A stretch of DNA of 27,075 nt, taken from the IMG/VR virus record IMGVR_UViG_3300042691_029707, positions 1-27,075 of that record; one strand, written 5' to 3'. Shown here piece after piece: positions 513 to 27,075 of this stretch (position 1 is its first letter; the number at the start of each line of letters is the position of its first letter). A program made the translations under genes and the position numbers. The DNA comes from a virus. Below the pieces are notes generated by a model, which saw nothing but the letters and a program-made list of their open reading frames with translations, was not told the origin of the DNA and did no database searches.

Positions 513-724
513 TAGATTTTACAACAAGCCAATTAACATGGATAGTAGTAGGTGCTTGTAGCCTAGGTGGCGGCGGCTATTTGACTATGACCTCTACAGT
601 AGGTGATCTAGATAAGAAGATTGAAGTATCAAACGCTAGAGCAGAGGCAATGAATGAAAAGCTAGGTTCACTTAAACAACAACTTGATCGCATTGAAGAA
701 AAAATTGATTCGGGTAAAAAATGA
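509..724 (+). CDS. Small membrane-anchored coiled-coil protein
   Basis: This 71-residue protein has one hydrophobic segment near the N-terminus (about residues 8-28, with a run of four glycines inside). A charged heptad-like helix follows (about 33-68, with the pattern LDKKIE, MNEKLGSLKQQLDRIEEKI). The layout of one membrane anchor plus a coiled coil resembles phage spanin or small inner-membrane components and some membrane-anchored assembly factors, but no family motif settles it. The start overlaps the stop of the upstream gene (ATGA), and its own stop overlaps the ATG of the next gene (ATGA at 721), so the three genes are translationally coupled. No endolysin is adjacent, so a lysis role is only a possibility. 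Confidence 0.7.
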   Translation: MIDFTTSQLTWIVVGACSLGGGGYLTMTSTVGDLDKKIEVSNARAEAMNEKLGSLKQQLDRIEEKIDSGKK

Positions 725-3700
725 AATCAAAAGATATTATTAAAGAAGCAAGCGTAATGGATGTTGAGCCGTCTAGAGATTGGCGTACAGATCCTGCGGC
801 ACGTAGAGCTAAAGAAAGAGAGCAAGCATTAGGAGCAGATGAGATTTCACAAATATTAACTCCTGGTGTTAGTTCTGCACAAGATATTGGTGATGTAGCT
901 CAAGGTGATTATGGTGCATTGCCTTTAGTAGCTTTAGGCATGTTACCAGGTGGCGGCGCAGCAAAAAAACTTTATAAAAAACTTTTTGGTAAAAGTGATC
1001 GTGAAGTATCAAAGGCAGCAGCAAAGGCAGAAAGAGATAGATTATCTAACTTATCGCCAGCACAAAGACAAGCAGATAAAGAAACACGCAGTGGAAAATT
1101 CGAACCTTCTTCTAAATCGAAAAAAGGAGAAGAACCTGTAAAACGTGATGAACCTGATTTATGGAAAGATCAAAAGAACTATAAAGACTTAGATCGTCCT
1201 ACCGTACAAAGAAAAGTTGATAAAGATAAAGCTGATAGAGACACAGCGACTAAAGATAAAAGTTCTGAGCCAAGATACAAGAAAGATATAAAAACAGGTG
1301 AAAATATTCCGTTAAACGTTCAGGCACAATTACAACAAAAATTACAAGGTAAGGGTTTTAAAGAACCAGAATCTGGTAGTATAAGTGGATTCAAAGCAAG
1401 ACCTGATAGAAGCACTGCAAAGAAAGACACCAAAGCAGAACCTAAAACTGAACCTAAAACAGAACCTAAGGCAGAACCTAAGGCAGAACCAGCAAAAGTA
1501 GAGCCTAAAACAGATCAAAAAATGGTATTTGATCCTTGGTCTAAAAAAATGATTCCTGCAAGTGATTGGGCTAAGGCAATACCTAGAAATGTAGATCCCA
1601 CATTGGTTCAAAATATTATTAAAGGAATTAAAGGCCTTCCAGGAAGAGCAACAGATATCATTACGTCACCTGTCGCTGCAGCCAAATATCTTTGGCCAAA
1701 AAACAAAACTGAATTTACTATTAGTGCAGCAGCACATGCTGCTTTAGTAGCGTACTTATGGAATATATACAAGCAACAATCTGGAGCTGAAAAAGCACAA
1801 AATGCAGGAACTGGAAACCAACCATTGTCAGTAACTTTAATACAAGATCCTGGATCTGAAAAAGCTGCTAACGCTGCATCCACATCACCATCAGATGCAC
1901 CTGTAGCATCTAAAACAACAACAGATAAATCTGCAGAACCTGCTACTACAACACAACCTGCTGCCGCCAAAGAACCATCAAAAGATTCAGGAGAAGAAAA
2001 ATCATTACCACCTGTTGTAGTAACTGCAAAAAAAGATGCACCACAGCCTGAAAAAAATCAACCTGTAAAGGCAGTAGATCCTACTAAAAAAGCTGAAGAA
2101 CCTAAAGCAGATACAGTTATCGCAACAGATAAGCCAACCAGTTGGGAAGTTGAGTTAAAGAAAGATCAAGAAAGAGCAGAAGCAGATCAAGTTAATGACA
2201 AACAAAGTGCTAAAACTACACAAGCAGTAACACAGCCAGAAGAAGATGAAAAAGACATTATTGAAAAGCTTAAGAAACTATTAGGTTTAGAAAAAAATGC
2301 ACAACAAGCTAACGTTCAACCTGAAAAGGAACCTGCTGAAACTGAAAAGGAACGTCTAGAAAGATTGAGTAAGCTACTTGATTTAGATAAAAATGCACAA
2401 CAGGCTAATGCTCAACCTGATCAAAAACCAACTGTAGCAAACGAACCTAGAAGTGAACTTAAACCCGAACCAGTGAAAATACCACAAGACGGACCTGGTA
2501 AAGGGGACGCAGAAAAAGGAGATGATAGTAAGAGGGGCGATCAAACAATAGCTTATCCAAAATATCCTGCAGATAATAGAAACGATAAACCTCAAGATAC
2601 AGAAAAAACTGGACAGGATACTATTACAAGAAAAACTGATAGTATTGTAGATATAGGTCCAGCTGCAACAGGCAGAGATCCTACAACTAATTATGCACCT
2701 CCTCCTCCTGCAACATCTGCAAATACAGACAATGATAGATCAAGTATTTTGCGTGATTTAAGACGTAGAGAAAGAGAACAAAAAAGGCAAGAGGTTCCAG
2801 ATCAAATTAGAATGGAACCAGTAAGAGAAGATATAAACCATATCTTAAATTTAGCAAATATTACCAAGAAAGAAATTGTGGAGTCAACTATGAACCTAGA
2901 CATGAGACAAATGATTGCTTTATTAGATGAAGCAACTAAAATGGCCGATATCAAAGGCAAAAAGCATACCGGTAAGTATGGTAAAGAATACGATACAGAT
3001 GAAGAAGGTGATGCAAAAGATAAAAAAGCTGAGCCTGCTGAAAAGAAAGGACGTGGTCGCCCTAAGAAAGACAGCAACGTTGAAGCTGGTAAATATAAAG
3101 GTGCAGACGATGCTGCTAGTCATGTCATTGGTGGAAAAGCTCCTAAAGGTAAATCAAATCTACCTAGCAAAAAGCATACACTAAAAGACTGGGTAGAGTA
3201 CGCTGAACAGTCCTTAAACGAGTCAGAACAAATTGATGAAAAAGCAGTTAGTAAAGCCCAACAAAAATTTATGGGTATGGTACATGCTGCACAAAAAGGC
3301 AAAAAGCCAGCAAGCAAAGAAGTAGCTAAAGTTGCAAAAACTATGGGGAAGAAAGATGCAAAAGATTTTGCAGCAACAAAGCATAAAGGTTTACCTGAAA
3401 AAGTTAAAGAAGGTGAAAAATTCACTAGTAACGGTAAAACAATTAGTAAAGATCAATATGATGCACTAAGGATAGCGGCTGGTAAGAATCCTAGTCCAGC
3501 CAATGTTAAAGAAGCACTAAAAGGTGGGCAAAAGAACCTTGACGTTGCAGAGCCTAAAGGTAAATTAGATGCAAAGGATTTCGCTAAATTGAGAGCAAAG
3601 AAAAAGATTAAAGAAGGTGTTAATTTCGCAGAAATGATGAAAGAAACACAGATGGGCATTGAAGAAATGCTGGAAGAATTACAACAGGAAATAGCTGAGT

Positions 3701-5682
3701 TTAAAGCAACCGGCAATATGGGCGATAAGTTACGTGACGCATTTGATATCCATCGTCATAGTAAAAACAAATTAATGGGCGAAGCTCCTGTGATGCCACA
3801 GACAGTAGTAGAAGAACCATTAGAAGAAAATCCATTTACTTACGCAGCAAGACAGGCTAAAGCATCAGGTGATGATAGCTTTAAGTTGGGTGGCGAAACA
3901 TTCCCTGTTAAGGAATCACAAGAAGAAGTTGACGAAAGTGGGCTTCAGGCTTACTTAGGAAACAAGAAGTATGGTAAAGAAGGAATGGATGCACTACGTA
4001 AGGCAGGTCGTGAGGGCGCAAGCAAAGAGAAAATGGCAAAGATCCGTGCTAAACATGATAAGATGGATGAAGACGGACCCGGTGCATCAAGATTGTACGG
4101 TGACAATGAAAAATCAGATTTTGATGTTGTGGACACAATGAAAAAATTTGCCAACAAAGGAATAGATGCATATAATGATTACGAGCAGAGTAAAAAAGAT
4201 CGCTGGGATTCAATAAAATGGCCGGATGGTTCAGGTGGCAAGCCTGGTAGCAGTGGTCCTGCAATGAAAATACCTAGATTTGATACAAAAGATGATAATT
4301 ACCCAGATGAATTCAATCGTGGTATAAAACCTGAAAAAGAATTGCCCCCTGTAATAGTAAGAGCGAAAAAAGAACCAGAATCTGACATCTTTGATCGTGA
4401 AAAACCATATAGAGATCCTAGAACAGGCAAAATGGTAACACCACCAAAAGGTTTAAGCATCAGTGAACCATATGGTAAAAAAGGATATCCAGATGCAGTT
4501 GATATCAACGCTCCGCAAAGAGGAAAAGAACGCAAATCTATGAAAGAAAACTTTGATTTTTCATTATGGGATAATCAACTTGAAAAAATGATTAACGAAA
4601 GTTTAACGATTACAACAACTCAAGGTGACGATGAAAAAGATAATAGTGTAAGTATTACAGCAAGTGGCGAAAAAGCTGCAGAAATAATGGCATTATTACG
4701 AAATGCTGGTATGGAATCAATGGGTGGTCAAATGCAAGACGAACCTGTAGTAGTAGAACCTGAGCAACTATTATCAGCTTACGGTGTTCCAATGTCAAGT
4801 GATAGTTCAGAATCAGGACACGATGATATTGTGTCATTAATGCAGAAATTAACTGGATTAGGTTCAGACGAAGGTGATTCAGAAGAAATGGAATTCGATG
4901 CTGTTGAACCAGAACATGAAGAACATGATTCCGAGGATTACGAAGAAGAGGATAATGAAGATGAAGGCGAGGAAGAAGACCAGGCTGAAGAAGATTCTGA
5001 TGAAGAAGATAATTCAGACGAGGAAGAAGTAGATGAGTCTTATGGTCAAACTGATGAAGGCAACAAATTCACCGGTAATCTAGCAAAGGCTAGAGCAGCA
5101 GGTAAAGACGAAGCTGATTTAGATGGTGACGGCGACATGGAAAAAGTTCGTGAGGGCGAAGGTGAGACTTGCAATGAGTGCGGTATGTACGAGTCAAAAT
5201 GCAGTTGTGATCATGAAGAAACGAATGAAGGCGTAAAAGCAATGGGTATGATAACTCCAAAGGATGACGGTGATGAATATCAACCTGCTCCTGGCTACAG
5301 AGTTCGAAGCACCTTTAGTAAAGGGCAGGATAAGCCTGAAATGAGTTTTGTTAAAGACAAAGAGGGATTAAATCCTTCTAAGATTCCAGATCAAAGCGAA
5401 TTACCATTACAAAACGAACCATTTCATGGACCACGCAGTCTATCTACTCAACCTGAAAAAACAGGATTTGAAAGTTTAGAAAGCGCACGTCCGATTGAAG
5501 AAGAATTGGCTAACGGAGCTGATGATACTACGATGCAAGATATTAAGTATCTAATCAAAACGCTTGCAGGTGGGTTAAATAGCGAAAAACGTGATCAGAC
5601 TACTTTACCGCATACAGCAGTAAAAATGACTGAAAGTAAGGAAATGCTAAATGAATGGAAGAAATTAAGTGGTATAAAATAA
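721..5682 (+). CDS. Giant disordered virion-like protein (1653 aa) with AT-hook, Cys cluster and acidic tract
   Basis: I know of no assigned function. The product is mostly Lys/Glu/Pro/Ala-rich and predicted disordered. Visible elements in order: an N-terminus MKSKDIIKEASV; TEPK/AEPK tetrapeptide repeats at about 238-265; a hydrophobic helix at about 330-350; LPPVVVTAKK at 429-438; two 32-residue-spaced copies of a leucine-rich segment ending KNAQQAN (about 512-570); an AT-hook core RGRP with flanking lysines (777-783); LPPVIVRAKK at 1208-1217; a structured-looking module near 1275-1330; an Asp/Glu tract at about 1389-1440; a DLDGDGD calcium-loop-like stretch at 1466-1472; and a C-x2-C-x6-C-x-C-D-H cluster at 1484-1498. 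Six (L/I)xE sites followed by A, S or G match the T4 gp21 prohead-protease rule. It ends in a strong terminator. An internal head or core protein is my best inference. Confidence 0.85.
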   Translation: MKSKDIIKEASVMDVEPSRDWRTDPAARRAKEREQALGADEISQILTPGVSSAQDIGDVAQGDYGALPLVALGMLPGGGAAKKLYKKLFGKSDREVSKAAAKAERDRLSNLSPAQRQADKETRSGKFEPSSKSKKGEEPVKRDEPDLWKDQKNYKDLDRPTVQRKVDKDKADRDTATKDKSSEPRYKKDIKTGENIPLNVQAQLQQKLQGKGFKEPESGSISGFKARPDRSTAKKDTKAEPKTEPKTEPKAEPKAEPAKVEPKTDQKMVFDPWSKKMIPASDWAKAIPRNVDPTLVQNIIKGIKGLPGRATDIITSPVAAAKYLWPKNKTEFTISAAAHAALVAYLWNIYKQQSGAEKAQNAGTGNQPLSVTLIQDPGSEKAANAASTSPSDAPVASKTTTDKSAEPATTTQPAAAKEPSKDSGEEKSLPPVVVTAKKDAPQPEKNQPVKAVDPTKKAEEPKADTVIATDKPTSWEVELKKDQERAEADQVNDKQSAKTTQAVTQPEEDEKDIIEKLKKLLGLEKNAQQANVQPEKEPAETEKERLERLSKLLDLDKNAQQANAQPDQKPTVANEPRSELKPEPVKIPQDGPGKGDAEKGDDSKRGDQTIAYPKYPADNRNDKPQDTEKTGQDTITRKTDSIVDIGPAATGRDPTTNYAPPPPATSANTDNDRSSILRDLRRREREQKRQEVPDQIRMEPVREDINHILNLANITKKEIVESTMNLDMRQMIALLDEATKMADIKGKKHTGKYGKEYDTDEEGDAKDKKAEPAEKKGRGRPKKDSNVEAGKYKGADDAASHVIGGKAPKGKSNLPSKKHTLKDWVEYAEQSLNESEQIDEKAVSKAQQKFMGMVHAAQKGKKPASKEVAKVAKTMGKKDAKDFAATKHKGLPEKVKEGEKFTSNGKTISKDQYDALRIAAGKNPSPANVKEALKGGQKNLDVAEPKGKLDAKDFAKLRAKKKIKEGVNFAEMMKETQMGIEEMLEELQQEIAEFKATGNMGDKLRDAFDIHRHSKNKLMGEAPVMPQTVVEEPLEENPFTYAARQAKASGDDSFKLGGETFPVKESQEEVDESGLQAYLGNKKYGKEGMDALRKAGREGASKEKMAKIRAKHDKMDEDGPGASRLYGDNEKSDFDVVDTMKKFANKGIDAYNDYEQSKKDRWDSIKWPDGSGGKPGSSGPAMKIPRFDTKDDNYPDEFNRGIKPEKELPPVIVRAKKEPESDIFDREKPYRDPRTGKMVTPPKGLSISEPYGKKGYPDAVDINAPQRGKERKSMKENFDFSLWDNQLEKMINESLTITTTQGDDEKDNSVSITASGEKAAEIMALLRNAGMESMGGQMQDEPVVVEPEQLLSAYGVPMSSDSSESGHDDIVSLMQKLTGLGSDEGDSEEMEFDAVEPEHEEHDSEDYEEEDNEDEGEEEDQAEEDSDEEDNSDEEEVDESYGQTDEGNKFTGNLAKARAAGKDEADLDGDGDMEKVREGEGETCNECGMYESKCSCDHEETNEGVKAMGMITPKDDGDEYQPAPGYRVRSTFSKGQDKPEMSFVKDKEGLNPSKIPDQSELPLQNEPFHGPRSLSTQPEKTGFESLESARPIEEELANGADDTTMQDIKYLIKTLAGGLNSEKRDQTTLPHTAVKMTESKEMLNEWKKLSGIK
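1432..1515 (+). repeat. 12-bp tandem repeat coding TEPK/AEPK
   Basis: About five imperfect 12-base units (pattern cctaaaactgaa / cctaaggcagaa) sit in frame and encode Glu-Pro-Lys-Thr/Ala tetrapeptides inside the giant protein. They give an extended, charged, Pro-rich linker. Copy number is likely to vary between relatives. Confidence 0.7.
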
Positions 5683-5780: not shown

Positions 5781-7877
5781 ATGGCTCAAGAAATTATCGA
5801 CTTCGGTTCATATCCAAATGACCCTGATTCCGACGCTATAAGAGTAGCGTTTCAAAAAACTCAAAACAATTTTAATGAATTATTTTCAATTCAATACCAA
5901 ACTGGTGTTTCTCAAGTCCTTGAGGGGGCAGGAATAACAGTAAATCAAAATACTGGAAATGTTACTGTAACAAATAGAATTGCTAATATAACTATTCAAA
6001 CCGACACTAATTTTTTGATAGGTGTAACGACAGCTAGTTCAAATACTGCTACGATAAACTCAGGAACTACACCATTTGTATTAAATTTAGCTAATTCAAT
6101 AAGTACAGGAAATATAACAGCCACTGGAACACTGACTGGAACATTTTCGAACACATCAAACAGTCAACCAAATATCACAAGCATTGGTAATTTAGGTAAT
6201 TTATCAGTTGTAGGAACAATAAGATCAAATAGTTTTGTAAGTAATAATGTCAATGCTTTAAATTTTACAGCAACTTATATGACATCTCCTGGCAGTAATA
6301 CTCAATTATTATTAAATGATTCAGGCAATGTTGGAACATCTTCAAACTTAACTTTTAACGGTAATACCTTGTTAGTTACAGGTGCTATATCTGCAACTGG
6401 TAATATAATAGGTTTAAATTTTATTAACACAGGAACTGTAAGCGCAATTGGTAACATAACAACAAATGCTAATATAACATCAAACTCAAATATAAGTGCT
6501 ACCGGAAACATTATTGCTAATAACTTTATTGGTAGGCTTGCAAATGGAACTTCAAATGTAAGTATTCCAACTGCCAATGGTAATATCAGACTTGGAGTGT
6601 CAGGAGTAGCGGATGTTATAGTAGTTACTAGTGCAGGAGCAGTTATTAATAATAGTTTAAATGTCTCTAGTACAATTAATACAGTAGATTTAATTGCGTC
6701 TGGTTTAGTAGATGCAGCAGGTGACATTGAAGCGGGGGGAGATTTAACCGTTTATGGAAACGCAAACATAGTAACAAATGCTAACATAGGTAATGTTTTT
6801 ACATCAAGGGTAGTAGCTACTGGAAATATTTCTGGTGGTAATATAACAATAAGCAGTGCCCTAAGTGCTACAGGAAATGCAAATGTTGGTAATTTAGGCA
6901 CAGGTGGACTAATTACTGCAACTGGTAATGCAACTGCAGGCAATATTATTACTAGTGGACTAATTACTGCAACTGGTAATGCAACTGCAGGCAATATTAT
7001 TACTAGTGGACTAATTACTGCAACTGGTAATGTTCAGGCAGGAAATATTAGAACTGTCGGATCAGTTAGTGCTACAGGTAATCTAACTGCCAATACAGCT
7101 AATTTAGGAAATTCAGTAACAGCAAACTTTTTTATTGGTAATGGTAATTCACTGTTTAGTTTGCAAGGAGCAAACATTATAGGTAATGTACCAGTATCAA
7201 ATCTAGCATATTTTTCCAATATAACTGCAACTAGTAATGCTAATGTAATTAATTATATTCCATTTGTTAATACCACAAGTGGTAACGCTAATTTAGTTGC
7301 AGACAGCATTCTTACATATAACTCAAACTCAAAAGTTTTAAGTTCTCAGGCACTTAGTATAACCGGAAACATCGTTGCAGGAAATTTAAATGTACAAAAT
7401 GGAACACTAACAGGTAGAGCATTAAGTACAGGAGCTAACACAACTCAAGGTAATATAACAGGCAATTGGGTATTAACAGCAGGTTCACTGCTCAGTGCAA
7501 CTTATGCTGACTTGGCTGAATATTATGCAGGAGATCAAAACATCGACTCCGGCACGGTTGTTGAATTTGGTGGAATAAATGAGATTATAATTTGTAACAC
7601 AGAGCTAAGCGATAAAATTGCAGGTGTTGTATCAACTAATCCCGCCTATGTTATGAATAGTATGATAGAGGCTGAATTTCCAATCGCTGTTGCATTACAG
7701 GGAAGAGTACCAGTTAAGGTAACTGGTGTTATTCGCAAAGGAGACATGTTAGTAAGCGCAGGTAATGGGTTAGCTAAATCACACAAGTTCCCAACAATTG
7801 GGTCAGTTATAGGTAAAGCACTTCAAGATTTTTCAGGAAGTTATGGAGTTATAGAAGTTGCAGTTGGAAGATTATAA
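5781..7877 (+). CDS. Repeat-built tail fibre protein with C-terminal chaperone/peptidase G2-like domain
   Basis: This is a 698-residue structural protein, probably a tail fibre or baseplate-attached spike. The first 35 residues (AIRVAFQKTQNNFNELF) look like the short anchoring segment found at the start of many marine phage fibre proteins. Residues about 100-560 are low-complexity Asn/Thr/Ser/Gly/Ala with a recurring ATGN motif and alternating hydrophobics, as expected for a beta-solenoid or trimeric fibre shaft. The last 125 residues (from YADLAEYYAGD, about 573 onward, including VVSTNPAYVMNS and ALQGRVPVKVTG) are compact and resemble C-terminal intramolecular-chaperone or peptidase G2 domains of fibres. 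That family call is from memory and moderate. An endolysin gene follows 10 bases after its stop. Arginine codons are almost all AGA/AGG. Confidence 0.8.
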   Translation: MAQEIIDFGSYPNDPDSDAIRVAFQKTQNNFNELFSIQYQTGVSQVLEGAGITVNQNTGNVTVTNRIANITIQTDTNFLIGVTTASSNTATINSGTTPFVLNLANSISTGNITATGTLTGTFSNTSNSQPNITSIGNLGNLSVVGTIRSNSFVSNNVNALNFTATYMTSPGSNTQLLLNDSGNVGTSSNLTFNGNTLLVTGAISATGNIIGLNFINTGTVSAIGNITTNANITSNSNISATGNIIANNFIGRLANGTSNVSIPTANGNIRLGVSGVADVIVVTSAGAVINNSLNVSSTINTVDLIASGLVDAAGDIEAGGDLTVYGNANIVTNANIGNVFTSRVVATGNISGGNITISSALSATGNANVGNLGTGGLITATGNATAGNIITSGLITATGNATAGNIITSGLITATGNVQAGNIRTVGSVSATGNLTANTANLGNSVTANFFIGNGNSLFSLQGANIIGNVPVSNLAYFSNITATSNANVINYIPFVNTTSGNANLVADSILTYNSNSKVLSSQALSITGNIVAGNLNVQNGTLTGRALSTGANTTQGNITGNWVLTAGSLLSATYADLAEYYAGDQNIDSGTVVEFGGINEIIICNTELSDKIAGVVSTNPAYVMNSMIEAEFPIAVALQGRVPVKVTGVIRKGDMLVSAGNGLAKSHKFPTIGSVIGKALQDFSGSYGVIEVAVGRL
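6906..7032 (+). repeat. 51-bp exact tandem repeat in fibre shaft
   Basis: Two identical 51-base units (6906-6956 and 6957-7007) plus the first 25 bases of a third (7008-7032) encode a 17-residue unit, GLITATGNATAGNIITS. I see no mismatch between the copies, so the duplication is recent or kept uniform by recombination. Changes in copy number would lengthen or shorten the shaft by whole units without a frameshift. Confidence 0.92.
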
Positions 7878-22418: not shown

Positions 22419-22422
22419 TTTT

Positions 22423-22430
22423 GATAAATA
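22423..22430 (+). promoter_or_regulatory. Late promoter (GATAAATA) for the nucleotidyltransferase operon
   Basis: GATAAATACT, matching the boxes at 5750 and 16945, lies five bases after a stop codon and 22 bases before the ATG of the small gene at 22453. Its last bases are one arm of a hairpin that also holds the ribosome site. Confidence 0.75.
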
Positions 22431-22450
22431 CTCTATTAATGGAGTATTTA
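22425..22450 (+). promoter_or_regulatory. Inverted repeat covering late box and Shine-Dalgarno
   Basis: Nine-base arms TAAATACTC (22425-22433) and GAGTATTTA (22442-22450) flank an 8-base loop. The right arm, with the last loop base, contains the GGAG ribosome site (22441-22444) of the gene starting at 22453. The stem could hide the site if transcription starts upstream of it. In transcripts made from the box itself most of the left arm would be missing and the site free. Confidence 0.55.
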
Positions 22451-22452
22451 CC

Positions 22453-22620
22453 ATGGCAAAAATCGTCGAAGATGTACTGGTTATAAAATTAAGCAAAATC
22501 GTAAAAGATAGTGATACAGTAGAATCAGGGATAGCTACCTCTGAGGTACAAACAGCACTAGAGCAGGTAGTTCAAGAACTTGTTGGCAACTCTGTAGTTG
22601 TGGAAGTGATGCAAGCATAA
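22453..22620 (+). CDS. Conserved-looking small protein (55 aa)
   Basis: The gene is short but well supported. A late promoter and GGAG site lie before the ATG, codon use is like its neighbours, and its TAA overlaps the next ATG by one base (TAATG at 22618). The product starts MAKIVEDVLVIKLSKIVKDS, continues with an amphipathic segment (VQTALEQVVQELVG) and ends NSVVVEVMQA, a strand-linker-helix-strand pattern compatible with a small folded protein. I have an impression of similar small proteins in marine T4-like phages but cannot name a function. Confidence 0.78.
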   Translation: MAKIVEDVLVIKLSKIVKDSDTVESGIATSEVQTALEQVVQELVGNSVVVEVMQA

Positions 22621-22958
22621 TGTCACAGGCCACAACACTAATATTACTATCTCAAACTCCTTTCGGGTCAGGTCCCAATATCACAGGGGAAAAACAGCCT
22701 GCCGCAAGCTATTATTTGGGCAAAAGCGACTTACAGACACTTACTTGGAATTTCACAAACGTTTCTGCTACAGTAGTAGTGCAAGCTAGTTTGTCTGAAA
22801 ATCCAACTAATAGTGATTGGTTTAACGTCTATACACTAAGTCCTAGTTCAACCACTGAATTAGGATTTTATAATTTATCCGGAAACTTTGTATGGCTTAG
22901 AGTCAATATCACTAACTTTACTACCGGAGTAATTCAGTCAATAAAGGTAAGCTACTAA
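22620..22958 (+). CDS. Small beta-rich protein, probably structural
   Basis: This 112-residue protein is almost wholly beta-strand in pattern, rich in Ser/Thr/Asn, with Trp and Tyr spaced as in a jelly-roll or Ig-like sandwich (LTWNFTNVSATVVVQASL, DWFNVYTL, GNFVWLRVNITNF). It has no signal peptide. It overlaps both neighbours by one base (TAATG at each end), so it is part of the late operon. A head or tail decoration or a carbohydrate-binding module is plausible. Confidence 0.7.
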   Translation: MSQATTLILLSQTPFGSGPNITGEKQPAASYYLGKSDLQTLTWNFTNVSATVVVQASLSENPTNSDWFNVYTLSPSSTTELGFYNLSGNFVWLRVNITNFTTGVIQSIKVSY

Positions 22959-23695
22959 TGTCAATGATCTCAGAAGGTGGCAACGTTGTTCCTGATGCTA
23001 AGCCTGTCACAAGAAAAAATGTACAAACTGTAGTCAATAATCTGCAGAAATTAATGCCCAAAGGCATCAACGTCTATCCTATAGGTAGTGCGGGCAAAAA
23101 GGATGTTAGCAGTGACATGGATGTACTAATTGACGCAGCAGAATTAATGACCGCTTTTCCTACAAAAGAACTTAAGCTTAGTCGTAAAGCATTAGAAGAA
23201 TATTTTCAAAGTAAGGGCATGTTTGCTGCAAGATCAGGAGTAAGCGTTCATGTAGGTGTCCCTACAGGCGAAGGTGATGACGTTACACAAGTTGACATTA
23301 TGGCAGTAGAAAATGCTAGGGATGTTGTGCCACTGCATACACATGATTATAGTCGTGATGCATCAATGAAAGGTGGCACACTACATGGAATGTGGGCTGA
23401 TTTAACCAACATGAGTTCATTACCAGAACATCCTAGCTTAATGATGAGTCCATATAAGGGATTAGTTGATCGCCAAACAAAAGAATTAATTACAAGCAAC
23501 AAAGATAAAATAGCAAAAATTATTATAGGTCCAGATGCAAGTGCAGAAGATATGGGCAGCGTACATTCATTATTAATGGCATTAAGAAAATATCCTGACA
23601 AGTACAAGCCTATTAAGGATAAGTGGGCACCCGATCTACAGTTAAGCGAAAATGACAACAGTTGGTTTAGATACGCATTGAATTTATTAAAATGA
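22958..23695 (+). CDS. Pol-beta-superfamily nucleotidyltransferase
   Basis: This 245-residue protein has the signature of the Pol-beta/minimal nucleotidyltransferase fold. PIGSAGKKDVSSDMDVLID has the GS pair at 43-44 and the metal-binding aspartates at D53 and D55, and QVDIMAV supplies the third carboxylate (D113). Such enzymes transfer a nucleotide from NTP to RNA, protein or small molecules; the substrate is unknown. The C-terminal half (HGMWADLTNMSSLPEHPS..., ADMGSVHSLLMALR-like) is helical. The N-terminus MSMISEGG has an I-S-E-G site like those cut by T4 prohead protease. Its stop overlaps the next gene (ATGA at 23692). Confidence 0.82.
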   Translation: MSMISEGGNVVPDAKPVTRKNVQTVVNNLQKLMPKGINVYPIGSAGKKDVSSDMDVLIDAAELMTAFPTKELKLSRKALEEYFQSKGMFAARSGVSVHVGVPTGEGDDVTQVDIMAVENARDVVPLHTHDYSRDASMKGGTLHGMWADLTNMSSLPEHPSLMMSPYKGLVDRQTKELITSNKDKIAKIIIGPDASAEDMGSVHSLLMALRKYPDKYKPIKDKWAPDLQLSENDNSWFRYALNLLK

Positions 23696-24819
23696 GAATA
23701 AGTGCATTATTAGAAGCAGCGGGACAAGTAGGTCGTAAATATCAGCATATTGAGGACCTAGTAATAGCCAACGGTAGTCACGGTGGATTACATGCAGTAG
23801 AGCGTATGCGTGATATGGCACAAAATTACGGCACTATAGAATTAAAATGGGACGGAATGCCTGTAGTGTATTGGGGCCGTGATGATAGTGGTCAGTTTTA
23901 TATGATTCCAAAAAATGCATGGCAATACTTAAAGTCAGGTACTATGCAAACTAAAGCAGGTGCTTCTACGTTAACTAAAAGCCCACAAGATGTAATGAAT
24001 TTTATATTAGGCACAGGTGGTGAAGCAAATGATAGTCGTGTACAGTTTGCAAAACAGTTTGCAAGTTTATGGCCTTATTTTGAACAAATAAGCCCAGTAC
24101 GAGGTTTTATAGAAGGCGGATTACTTTTTTATCCAGGTGCTCCTGCAGTATTAAATCCTAAAACAAATACATATGATTTTAAACCAAATATCACAACCTT
24201 TCATGTACCAGCAGATAGTGAATTAGGTAAGCGTATTGCAAATGCAAAAGTTATGGTTGCTGCTACTGGTTATTATGATGCAATTGGAAGCAGTGAAGAA
24301 AAAAGATATGAGGATGCAGATCAACTTTCAACACCAGAAGTAATTGTACAAGGAACAACATACGCAGAATCAATGCCAGGAGTGGATACAACTGGATTAG
24401 ATAGACTTGAACAGTTCATAAGCACTAATGCACAAAAAATTGATAATTTTTTAGCACCAAAGCCAGGAATGAACAATCCAGGCGGTGAGGTATATAACTA
24501 CTTAAATCAACATTTAAGAACAAGTGGTTTAGTTAGAGATTTCCCTAATTGGGCACAAAATAATTTAAGTGCAAAAAAAGCACAAACAATATTATCAGAT
24601 AAAGCTGGATACGAAGCGACATTAGGTGCAGTAGAAGCACTGACTAATGAGAAAATGAAAATAATTAAATCATTAAGTTTGGGCCTACATGGTGGAATAA
24701 TGCAAACAAAGCCAGAAGGCTATGCACAAGCACACCCTGAGATTAATTTCAAGTATGCATTGCCCGGACAGTTTTTAAAATTAATAGACCAACTTAATTG
24801 GCAACCGAGAAAATTATGA
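23692..24819 (+). CDS. KxDG ligase-like (covalent nucleotidyltransferase) protein
   Basis: This 375-residue protein contains IELKWDGMPVVYWGRD, with the K-x-D-G motif I (K52, D54, G55) used by ATP-dependent DNA/RNA ligases and capping enzymes for covalent nucleotide attachment. An FIEGGLLF segment (137-144) fits motif IV (E-G-hydrophobic). The rest does not clearly follow a known ligase subgroup, so the call is at superfamily level. The N-terminus MRISALLEAAGQ carries an L-L-E-A site like a T4 capsid-targeting and cleavage peptide. The gene is tightly coupled on both sides (ATGA at 23692 and 24816), between two other nucleotidyltransferase-like genes. A nucleic-acid end-repair role is the obvious hypothesis. 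Confidence 0.7.
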   Translation: MRISALLEAAGQVGRKYQHIEDLVIANGSHGGLHAVERMRDMAQNYGTIELKWDGMPVVYWGRDDSGQFYMIPKNAWQYLKSGTMQTKAGASTLTKSPQDVMNFILGTGGEANDSRVQFAKQFASLWPYFEQISPVRGFIEGGLLFYPGAPAVLNPKTNTYDFKPNITTFHVPADSELGKRIANAKVMVAATGYYDAIGSSEEKRYEDADQLSTPEVIVQGTTYAESMPGVDTTGLDRLEQFISTNAQKIDNFLAPKPGMNNPGGEVYNYLNQHLRTSGLVRDFPNWAQNNLSAKKAQTILSDKAGYEATLGAVEALTNEKMKIIKSLSLGLHGGIMQTKPEGYAQAHPEINFKYALPGQFLKLIDQLNWQPRKL

Positions 24820-26360
24820 TACAACGCACAGGAAAAAGTGATACAGCGGTAGTAGGATGGGGCCGTGGCATGGGTCACAAAGGTCACATGCTACTGGCTA
24901 GAGCAGTCATTGTTCAAGCACAGAATATGGGAGCAGACCCATACTTCTTTGTTAGTAGAACAGTTGGTGCAGACGATCCGTTATATCCAGAAGAAAAATT
25001 ATATATCTATAAGAAAGTTTTTCCTAAACAAGCGAATATATTTCAAAGTGCAACAGATGAAATACCTGACATCAATAGATTGATGAGGACACTTGCTGAA
25101 TTAGGTTATAAGAATGCAGTTTTAGTAGTAGGTGCGGATCAAGTTAAAGCATTTCAGTATTTGGTTGGACAAGATAAAGCAGGCAACATAGTTTATAAAA
25201 CGTTAGGATTAGAAAATTTAAGTGTAATTAAACGCCAAGATGTTGATGATCCAGCACAAAGTGAAGAGGGACCAAGGGCAACTCCAATGCGTGAAATTCT
25301 TAAAGATCCAAACGCAAGTGATGAGCAAAAGTTTGCAGTATGGAGAGATGCTATGCCAAACGCACTCAGCGATAAAGAAGTTTTAGCATTAATGCAGAAA
25401 GCAAGTCAACGTATGGGCGAATTTAAACCAGCAACTAAAAAAGCAAAAGTAAAAGAATTTATTCAGCGTGTTCGTCCTATGCTTAAAGAAGCAAACGCAC
25501 AACAGAAATTAAAATTACTTAGATTAATGAAAGAATCTTTAAAAAGGATGGCAGAAGATGACGAATCCGCAATGACTTCATCTGGTGTACCTTGGCAAGG
25601 ACCTAAATTAAATCGTGAAGTAATAACTCCGCCAGAAGGTTTAGAATGGCGTTTCGGTAAAAACGCTAAAGAAGATCCTAAAGACAGAGCAGACGCAAGA
25701 CATTTTGGTACAGTAATTGCTAGCGTTCCAAATCCGATTACTAAAGCAGCAGGTATGATGATGCGTTATGCTGGACAAGATCCTAAAGATTCAACTAATG
25801 TGCGAATAGCAAAGGCGATGGACAGTGCTGGAACTCCTGACGAAATTAGTAGATATCTAAAAAAGAAGGCAGTAAAAGAAGATGACATTCCTAACGAAAA
25901 AACTCTTAAACAACAAGAACAAGATCGTTGGTCGCATTATGATGCCGCAAAAAAAGCAGCCCAAGGCGAAATTTTAGGAAGAGAAGTAGATGGCAAAGTA
26001 ATCAGTATACCGCCAGGTCACCCAGAATATGATGAAACCTTTGATGACCTATACAGACAACAAAATCCTGGGTATCCCACTCCCAATGATCCTGGTTTCT
26101 ATTTAACTCCTTTTCGATATCCTGGCGAACCAGAACCAGCGTATACAAAAGCACTAGTTGAAATAGATGAACCATTTAATTTAGAAAAACGTCATTCTAT
26201 GGATTATGGAATGCGTAAAACAATGATCCGACGTTTAGCCAAAGCTACAGATTATGATGTAAGTGATTTAAGTCTAGCAAGCGATGAAGAATTGGCTGAT
26301 TTATACAAACAAGTATTCCCAGATAATTCAATAAACGAAGATTATCTGGACGAAAAATAA
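24816..26360 (+). CDS. HxGH adenylyl/cytidylyltransferase-like domain fused to a long polar region
   Basis: I chose the ATG at 24816, which overlaps the previous stop (ATGA), rather than an in-frame TTG at 24798; this gives 514 residues. The N-terminal 150-190 residues look like an HxGH nucleotidyltransferase: GWGRGMGHKGHMLLARA holds H-K-G-H at 21-24, LGYKNAVLVVGADQVKAF fits the core strand, and RATPMREIL resembles the C-terminal (S/T)-x-x-R block of NMNAT/cytidylyltransferases. The remaining 300 residues are polar, with several (L/I)xE-A/S sites (for example LKEANA) and a Pro/Tyr-rich stretch (HPEYDETFDDLYRQQNPGY), and look more like a virion or linker region. The substrate is unknown. Confidence 0.75.
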   Translation: MIQRTGKSDTAVVGWGRGMGHKGHMLLARAVIVQAQNMGADPYFFVSRTVGADDPLYPEEKLYIYKKVFPKQANIFQSATDEIPDINRLMRTLAELGYKNAVLVVGADQVKAFQYLVGQDKAGNIVYKTLGLENLSVIKRQDVDDPAQSEEGPRATPMREILKDPNASDEQKFAVWRDAMPNALSDKEVLALMQKASQRMGEFKPATKKAKVKEFIQRVRPMLKEANAQQKLKLLRLMKESLKRMAEDDESAMTSSGVPWQGPKLNREVITPPEGLEWRFGKNAKEDPKDRADARHFGTVIASVPNPITKAAGMMMRYAGQDPKDSTNVRIAKAMDSAGTPDEISRYLKKKAVKEDDIPNEKTLKQQEQDRWSHYDAAKKAAQGEILGREVDGKVISIPPGHPEYDETFDDLYRQQNPGYPTPNDPGFYLTPFRYPGEPEPAYTKALVEIDEPFNLEKRHSMDYGMRKTMIRRLAKATDYDVSDLSLASDEELADLYKQVFPDNSINEDYLDEK

Positions 26361-26411: not shown

Positions 26412-27075
26412 ATGGCTAAGAAAAAACAAACACAAGAAGAAGCTACTATACCTGTAGTACAGGCTGTAGAAGCAATTCAAGAAATACAAGAACAAGACGC
26501 TCCTGCAGCTCCTGCTCAAAATCAAGTACAAGTTAATGTAGACTTCTTAAAAACTACCCGCGTACACATAGCTATGCCATGCTATGGTGGTATGTTGACT
26601 GAATCTACGTTCATGAGTTTTATCAAATGGGCTAATACCGCACGTCAACTAGGAATCGACTGGACATTGGAAACAATGGTCAATGAAAGTCTAATCAGTC
26701 GTGCCCGTAATACATTAACAGCAAAATTCCTAGATCAAGCTGAATCAACCCACTTATTCTTTGTTGATGCAGATATTGGTTGGGAACCGTGGCATTTGTT
26801 AGTGTTGTTGAACCGTGATAAGGATGTTATTGGTGGATTATATCCCATGAAGACTATGCCAATCAAATGGGTAGTTAACGGGTTTGAGGGCGCTGAAGAA
26901 GGACCAGATGGCTTGCAAGAAGTCAGTAAAGCAGGTACAGGTTTCTTATTGATGAAGAAGCATGTATTTGAAAAACTTAATGTTCATCCTGCAGTCAAAC
27001 AGTATAAGAACGATATTGGTCTTGATCCAAAATACGACAAGTACCTAAAAACTTATTTTGACACAGCAGTTCGTC
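26412..27075 (+). CDS. Glycosyltransferase-like protein, 3' truncated by window
   Basis: The frame runs off the right edge after 221 complete codons. The start is the ATG at 26412 with GAGGA six bases upstream. Residues 1-48 are a polar Gln/Glu/Ala-rich lead. A GT-A-like domain follows: VHIAMPCYGGM (first strand and nucleotide loop), then ESLISRARNTLTAKFL and LFFVDADIGWEP, where D-A-D is the expected DxD metal/nucleotide-sugar motif. VIGGLYPMK, GTGFLLMKKHVFEKL and a DIGLDPKYD segment also occur in phage and bacterial glycosyltransferase-like proteins of this kind. It might modify phage DNA, virion proteins or host glycans; nothing here shows the acceptor. Confidence 0.8.
   Translation, partial: MAKKKQTQEEATIPVVQAVEAIQEIQEQDAPAAPAQNQVQVNVDFLKTTRVHIAMPCYGGMLTESTFMSFIKWANTARQLGIDWTLETMVNESLISRARNTLTAKFLDQAESTHLFFVDADIGWEPWHLLVLLNRDKDVIGGLYPMKTMPIKWVVNGFEGAEEGPDGLQEVSKAGTGFLLMKKHVFEKLNVHPAVKQYKNDIGLDPKYDKYLKTYFDTAVR

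Follow-up and report, generated by a model that had tools for sequence, protein, structure and literature searches.

Why should a phage carry genes for three different nucleotidyltransferase-like enzymes side by side? The question is raised by positions 1 to 27,075 of IMG/VR record IMGVR_UViG_3300042691_029707 (the window), a 27,075-base fragment of an uncultured T4-like virus of bacteria. An initial annotation, made from the sequence alone, had described three adjoining genes with a Pol-beta type, a covalent-ligase type and an HxGH type signature. These genes, here called g1, g2 and g3, are present as described, and their catalytic residues are 99-100% conserved across the respective families. 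The trio is a real, conserved module. We propose, with about an even chance of being right, that its enzymes form an internal-head module, carried by a T4-like phage, ejected with the DNA and probably serving nucleic-acid end repair and the supply of nicotinamide adenine dinucleotide (NAD).

A conserved three-gene module

Relatives were collected in scans of IMG/VR, which contained at least 95 relatives of g1 and at least 505 of g2. Because each scan was cut to its 80 best matches, the sample is biased towards close relatives; more distant ones were reached with a third scan. Among the 172 distinct g2 genes of the linkage sample, 93 belonged to the group resembling that of the window. In this group g1 adjoined g2 in 89 of 93 cases, the other four having less than 1.5 kb of upstream sequence, and g3 followed g2 in 77, with one real exception. 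Co-occurrence of the trio, which the initial annotation had suggested as a check, is thus conserved, and it is accompanied by natural fusions. The window-like group contained 12 g1-g2 and 33 g2-g3 fusions, further fusions were found in distant groups, and all three domains were present in one chain in 11 distinct proteins. In relative L253 the order was permuted to HxGH-g1-g2 in a single frame of 827 amino acids (aa), the HxGH part matching Pfam CTP_transf_like (E 0.0017). Distant groups had g1-g2, in many cases fused, with no detectable g3, or, as in isolates of the Kyanoviridae, g2-g3 with no g1; most of the distant relatives retain one or the other pair alone. Repeated joining in varied orders is strong evidence for shared function, and chance clustering of the trio is ruled out by the conserved synteny, the several fusion arrangements and the permuted fusion.

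Some of these loci contained additional genes. In L065 (7690-8260), L123 (6290-7010) and L126 (880-1740) an extra open reading frame lies between g1 and g2. It has the leader M(K/R)xxEIITEAANPxQQAA, a basic stretch SGMSxKxVxxYRRENPGSKLxTAVTTKPSKLKxGSKxAxRR and a ANPAQQAAIAINMKK motif that also occurs in fused g3 tails. An 854-aa protein of L303 (7933-10494) apparently combines an HxGH domain, a ParB-like stretch, a metalloprotease-like motif and a zeta-toxin/AAA_33 kinase (the kinase by Pfam); in phage HTVC008M, g2 and g3 are separated by a gene for a similar P-loop kinase. Upstream of g2 in the Kyanoviridae-type loci L002 (3260-4345), L004 (3908-4966) and L003 (4151-4930) there is a gene that looks PD-(D/E)XK-like by eye and had no meaningful match in Pfam.

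The nucleotidyltransferase folds foreseen for the three proteins were recovered strongly for g1, by profile for g3, and weakly for g2. The AlphaFold2 model of g1 (predicted local distance difference test, pLDDT, 90.2) matched Pol mu, lambda and beta in a Foldseek search of the PDB over about 200 columns (E 8.8e-7, probability 1.00), with moderate template-modelling scores of 0.47-0.51; the palm (and thumb) fold is present in the model. In the signature GSAGKKDVSSDMD...QVDI, G43, S44, D53, D55 and D113 were invariant in 53 sequences, and the catalytic G, D, D and D were 99-100% conserved in 110. On the basis of the model and the invariant catalytic triad, g1 can be confidently assigned to the Pol X-like enzymes. 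Searches of Pfam, PHROG and NCBIfam with g1 gave nothing above the cut-off, and no g1 was found in 50,697 records of cultured phages searched with two g1 lineages. The possibility that g1 is an RlaP was rejected, as the RlaP profile (PF10127) had no match at E<=1 among the 53 members.

For g2, membership in DUF6267 was established by a PF19782 score of 56.3 bits (gathering score 27). KWDG, EG and Lys are invariant in three deep groups of the family, and in order and type they correspond to ligase motifs I, IV and V; a divergent copy in L022 comes nearer to the textbook ligase (KWDG, NGEII and YEGVVKEMKDGRIIKII). With the AlphaFold2 model (pLDDT 90.0) the best Foldseek match in the PDB had a non-significant E of 0.086. 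ATP-dependent DNA, RNA or tRNA ligases accounted for about 20 of the 25 top-ranked weak hits, and the weak hits included the African swine fever virus ligase and archaeal and fungal RNA ligases. In the model, some 100 residues between the motifs form a helical insert, which may be why the superposition is poor. Taken together, g2 is probably an enzyme of the lysine-adenylate ligase type. A search of cellular genomes with g2 returned only three contigs, all within metagenome-assembled genomes and taken to be viral, and no PF09414 RNA ligase was found elsewhere in a 260-kb relative.

The phage family matched by g3, phrog_3041, is that of the cytidyltransferases. GH and Arg were 99-100% conserved in 104 sequences, and the [HT]xGH motif, the C-terminal (S/T)xxxR and the profile match are those of NMNAT / CTP_transf_like HxGH enzymes. 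The best profile matches of the family were to nicotinamide mononucleotide (NMN) / nicotinic acid mononucleotide (NaMN) adenylyltransferase models, yet far under the equivalog cut-offs; g3 is an NMNAT-like HxGH enzyme that may be specific for NMN or NaMN.

Leaders, fusion joints and virion proteins

In T4, N-terminal leaders target proteins to the prohead core and are cleaved off by gp21, and the proteins are ejected (PMC9026906, PMC9958956, PMC7411985). The leaders of T4 IPI, IPII, IPIII and Alt have about 8-20 aa and end in [IL]xE↓A (the arrow marks the cleavage site, a predicted one in the window and its relatives), as in MKTYQEFIAEA; leaders of this kind, such as MKIQSLLEAA, MQSFKQYLSEA and MLNYQEYLTES, were found in relatives of the window. 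The family forms are M..[IL]xE↓GGN for g1 and MKIxxLLxE↓A for g2, and g1 and g2 of the window both have leaders of the kind found on capsid-targeted internal head proteins (Table 1). Both leaders are predicted to be disordered (pLDDT <50), yet they are conserved.

Clusters of similar leaders were scored for [ILVF]xE[AGS], with windows within the same domains as controls. The site was present in 22 of 23 g1 leader clusters (2.5% of control windows), in 34 of 53 g2 leader clusters and 17 of 18 g1-g2 fusion joints (5.6% in both controls), and in 16 of 35 g3 leader clusters and 6 of 14 g2-g3 fusion joints (0.7% in both controls). The same leader pattern fits T4 IPI, IPII and IPIII, as against 2 of 21 other T4 proteins tested. 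The fusion joints appear to be the most telling: derived from other sequence, they retain the site just before the catalytic domain. In the three-domain protein of L058 the predicted sites are LLE↓GGN, VNE↓A and VRE↓D. A T4-type prohead protease gene (PF03420) is present in the genomes of two relatives (E 8e-29 and 2e-28).

Sites of this type were also found at the other end of g3. The hypervariable tails contain 1.11 protease-type sites per 100 aa, three-fold more than shuffled tails (about 0.35), and 39 of 63 distinct C-termini end in DY[LIVM]xE, other tails ending in a second type. In L061 (8723-11365) and L090 (7702-10038) the g3 tails carry QGVAEG/KEQGVAEA repeats, each fitting the protease-site pattern and possibly representing inserted elements; the tail in L044 (7714-10794) has an extra folded-looking domain (GGCLTAAEVIKNR...HAVVEKNGVYHDFDGP) between protease-type sites. 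A 1653-aa low-complexity protein encoded at 721-5682 of the window starts with MKSKDIIKEASV, a capsid-targeting-like leader, and may be internal-head cargo too.

Homologues of g3 in other phages have been detected in virions by mass spectrometry. Virions of S-SM1 contain a putative 'citidylyltransferase', T4-GC190 (PMC3037559), which is the g3 homologue SSM1_190, has the leader MKKFSAFLNEAE and is encoded beside the g2 homologue. (T4-GC15 was considered as the g2 of S-SM1 and rejected; g2 there is GC71.) Virions of S-CREM2 contain gp154 and gp156 (PMC10665884): gp154 belongs to the g3 family and has the leader MKNFSSFLTEAD, and gp156, encoded two genes away, is of Pol-beta type with an NTP_transf_2 match just above the cut-off. 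An NMNAT-like protein is also present in S-SCSM1 virions (PMC9602691), and host entry of such virion proteins has already been proposed (PMC9602691, PMC10665884). The g2-g3 pair itself is an old, unexplained feature of cultured cyanophages, in which g3 is annotated as 'cytitidyltransferase' and g2 as hypothetical or DUF6267. Melnitz and HTVC008M are further cultured phages that have g2-g3 with leaders. The guess in the initial annotation that the enzymes are carried in the virion thus gains support from the leaders, the protease sites and the published virion proteomics of homologues. As the trio is kept together in dozens of related viruses, sometimes fused, and with T4-type head-loading tags, it probably enters the host along with the viral DNA.

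Possible roles of the module

In the envisaged mechanism the operon would be expressed late, and the capsid-targeting-type leaders would load g1 and g2 into the prohead core, where a gp21-type protease would trim them after [ILVF]xE. Relatives would make the enzymes as a polyprotein of two or three, joined at sites of the same type. The g3 of the window, which has a C-terminal site only, may enter the head via the tail or via its partners. At infection the enzymes would enter the cell along with the DNA; g1 would add or fill nucleotides at broken ends, g2 would seal them, g3 would make NAD+ or another dinucleotide, and from the first moments of infection they might jointly protect the viral genome as it enters, or RNA that has been damaged. 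Put in its most specific form, polymerase, ligase and NAD-synthesis domains, translated either in one chain or from coupled genes, would constitute a phage-head polyprotein that is directed into the capsid by its leaders, cut into separate enzymes by the prohead protease and injected together with the genome as a nucleic-acid repair kit; we hold this proposal tentatively, its chances being slightly short of even. Of the roles considered in the initial annotation (end repair, tagging or a cofactor pathway), we prefer nucleic-acid end repair, given that it is the polymerase-like and ligase-like enzymes that make up the constant pair. The Pol X fold tips the balance slightly towards DNA as the substrate, details of the ligase motifs and the RlaP precedent towards RNA.

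Several observations weigh against an ejected internal-head module. The g3 of the window, like that of several relatives, has no N-terminal leader, which makes its packaging the weakest link. The leader clusters share ancestry, so that p-values overstate their independence and are not to be taken literally. In the 260-kb relative, the leader pattern was found genome-wide 7 times in its strict form as compared with 2.7 in shuffles (maximum 9), which is no significant enrichment; the signal therefore rests on conservation within the families, and the pattern alone cannot predict cargo. Many g2 leaders of Kyanoviridae end in ...E↓D, an ending outside the scored pattern, and PF03420 had no match in 8 of the 10 relatives searched, whose contigs are probably partial. 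No virion proteomics was found for any g1-bearing phage, nor any report of g2 in virions in the literature searched (supplementary tables not covered). The fold of g2 had no significant match in the PDB, and its profile-profile comparison (hhalign) with T4 Rnl2, gp30 and Rnl1 gave nothing significant, in a test that was underpowered, the positive control having failed too.

The best-surviving alternative, which we regard as unlikely, is an intracellular, unpackaged RNA-repair kit, in which the Pol-beta nucleotidyltransferase would restore lost nucleotides and an ATP-dependent RNA ligase would reseal tRNAs cut by host anticodon nucleases, g3 supplying NAD+ or adenylating RNA. Its model is RlaP with Rnl1/Rnl2, an already described pairing of a Pol-beta nucleotidyltransferase with RNA ligases in jumbo phages (PMC7824862). 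The best local profile matches of g2 fall on motifs IV-V of T4 Rnl2 and Rnl1, that with Rnl2 on E204GYV (none significant, and with the failed control), and the RNA ligases among its weak fold hits and the P-loop kinase of HTVC008M fit such a kit as well. The g1 family, however, is unmatched by RlaP in all 53 members and has DNA Pol X enzymes as its closest solved folds, and the leaders and protease-type joints argue for packaging. The RlaP systems resemble the trio in placing a Pol-beta nucleotidyltransferase beside a lysine-adenylate ligase, but g2 is unmatched by RNA_ligase models, and the extra HxGH enzyme and the packaging signals are features of the trio. African swine fever virus has a virion-associated repair system of Pol X and an ATP-dependent ligase; it shares with the module a minimal palm-thumb Pol X and a ligase in one virus, but as an unrelated virus with no shown homology it provides an analogy only.

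It is rather improbable that the module is a packaged NAD/nucleotide cofactor and counter-defence pathway, with g3 making NAD+ from NMN to offset NAD-depleting defences promptly, and g1 and g2 transferring nucleotides to small molecules or proteins. Such a pathway would agree with the NMN/NaMN adenylyltransferase matches of g3 and with the NMNAT-like proteins of cyanophage virions, for which the same proposal has been published (PMC9602691, PMC10665884). But g3 is not a constant part, since distant relatives retain g1-g2 with no detectable g3 downstream, and both the fold of g1 and the motifs of g2 suggest enzymes that act on polynucleotides. The NAD reconstitution pathways of phages (NARP1, NAMPT-NMNAT) likewise include an NMNAT-like enzyme, but no NAMPT, Adps or Namat partner was seen here. 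A nucleoside diphosphate sugar pathway, in which the glycosyltransferase-like gene directly downstream (26412) would use a nucleotide sugar made by g3 to decorate virion or DNA, is very improbable: that gene is conserved together with g3 and HxGH nucleotidyltransferases with sugar clusters are described in cyanophages (PMC7824862), but g3 is fused to g1 or g2, not to this gene, and in most of the distant relatives g1-g2 or g2-g3 occurs on its own.

The proposed internal-head module shares with the T4 internal head proteins, besides the leaders, the T4-type protease in relatives and the presence of g3 homologues in virions; it differs in its cargo, a conserved nucleotidyltransferase set that is sometimes a polyprotein with internal sites, and in that cleavage and packaging are predicted for this clade. 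The DUF6267 and 'cytitidyltransferase' pair of the Kyanoviridae (T4-GC 71 and 190) is homologous to g2 and g3, adjacent, fused in the cultured phage S-PM2 and virion-associated through g3, but these phages have no g1 of this family and their neighbourhood is different (uvsX-gp41-mazG). The statement in the initial annotation that no system with this trio is described holds within the searchable material, but not for the g2-g3 pair or for the pairing of a Pol-beta nucleotidyltransferase with a ligase. Capsid-targeted proteins, DUF6267 beside a cytidyltransferase and virion NMNAT were known; new, within the material searched, are a conserved set of three enzymes that includes g1, its occurrence as polyproteins, and protease-type sites where the enzymes are joined. 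If the proposal is correct, some T4-like phages inject, beyond small inhibitors, a whole repair set matured as a polyprotein by the head protease. DUF6267 and the 'cytidyltransferase' that is widespread in cyanophages would each acquire a function, the recurrent NMNAT-like proteins of cyanophage virions would be accounted for, and conserved [ILVF]xE motifs in leaders and joints would provide a simple rule by which further ejected enzymes could be recognised from sequence.

The operon and its surroundings

The three genes are consecutive on the + strand, with ATGA overlaps at g1/g2 and g2/g3 and a TAATG overlap between g1 and the preceding gene; g3 most likely starts at ATG 24816 (514 aa) rather than at TTG 24798. 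The two small proteins after a late promoter, noted in the initial annotation, are both encoded there (Table 1). The promoter-like element GATAAATACT is a variant of the T4 form TATAAATA. The window has three copies as compared with 0.17 expected, a number reached in 0 of 100 shuffles. All three copies are on the + strand, 15-31 nucleotides ahead of the genes at 5781, 16960 and 22453.

Table 1. Features of the operon in the window
Feature	Position	Strand	Remarks
T4-late-promoter-like element GATAAATACT	22423..22432	+	upstream of operon; also kept in relatives L010 and L037
Small conserved protein, 55 aa, first gene of operon	22453..22620	+	syntenic in relatives
112-aa protein, phrog_13657 (annotated as of unknown function)	22620..22958	+	syntenic in relatives
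g1, Pol X / Pol-beta type nucleotidyltransferase, 245 aa	22958..23695	+	AlphaFold2 and Foldseek
g1 leader MSMISE, ending in [IL]xE↓G site (ISE↓G)	22958..22975	+	residues 1-6 pLDDT <50
g1 motif GSAGKKDVSSDMD, metal-binding DxD	23084..23122	+	third Asp at 23294-23296
g2, DUF6267 protein with ligase-type motifs, 375 aa	23692..24819	+	PF19782 E 4.7e-15
g2 leader MRISALLE↓A, T4 capsid-targeting-like	23692..23715	+	residues 1-15 pLDDT <50
g2 motif I KWDG (K52)	23845..23856	+	100% in 168 sequences
g2 motif IV E342 G343	24715..24720	+	motif V K363 at 24778-24780; 99-100% conserved
g3, HxGH nucleotidylyltransferase (NMNAT-like), hypervariable C-terminal tail, 514 aa	24816..26360	+	phrog_3041 E 6.9e-20
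g3 active-site motif HKGH	24876..24887	+	within GHKGH; RATPMR further downstream
g3 C-terminal INE↓DYLDEK	26331..26357	+	conserved [IV]xE..DYLxEK ending with prohead-protease-like site

A PHROG search with the 55-aa protein gave no match. An inverted repeat (AAATACTC...GAGTATTT, 22422-22450) follows the late-promoter-like element and overlaps the ribosome-binding site of the first small gene. Besides the trio, the window encodes tail-fibre, endolysin, PhoH, clamp-loader, virion and ClpA/B-like genes. The weakly glycosyltransferase-like gene after g3 (phrog_1574, 26412-27074) also follows g3 in close relatives, where it is 89-99% identical.

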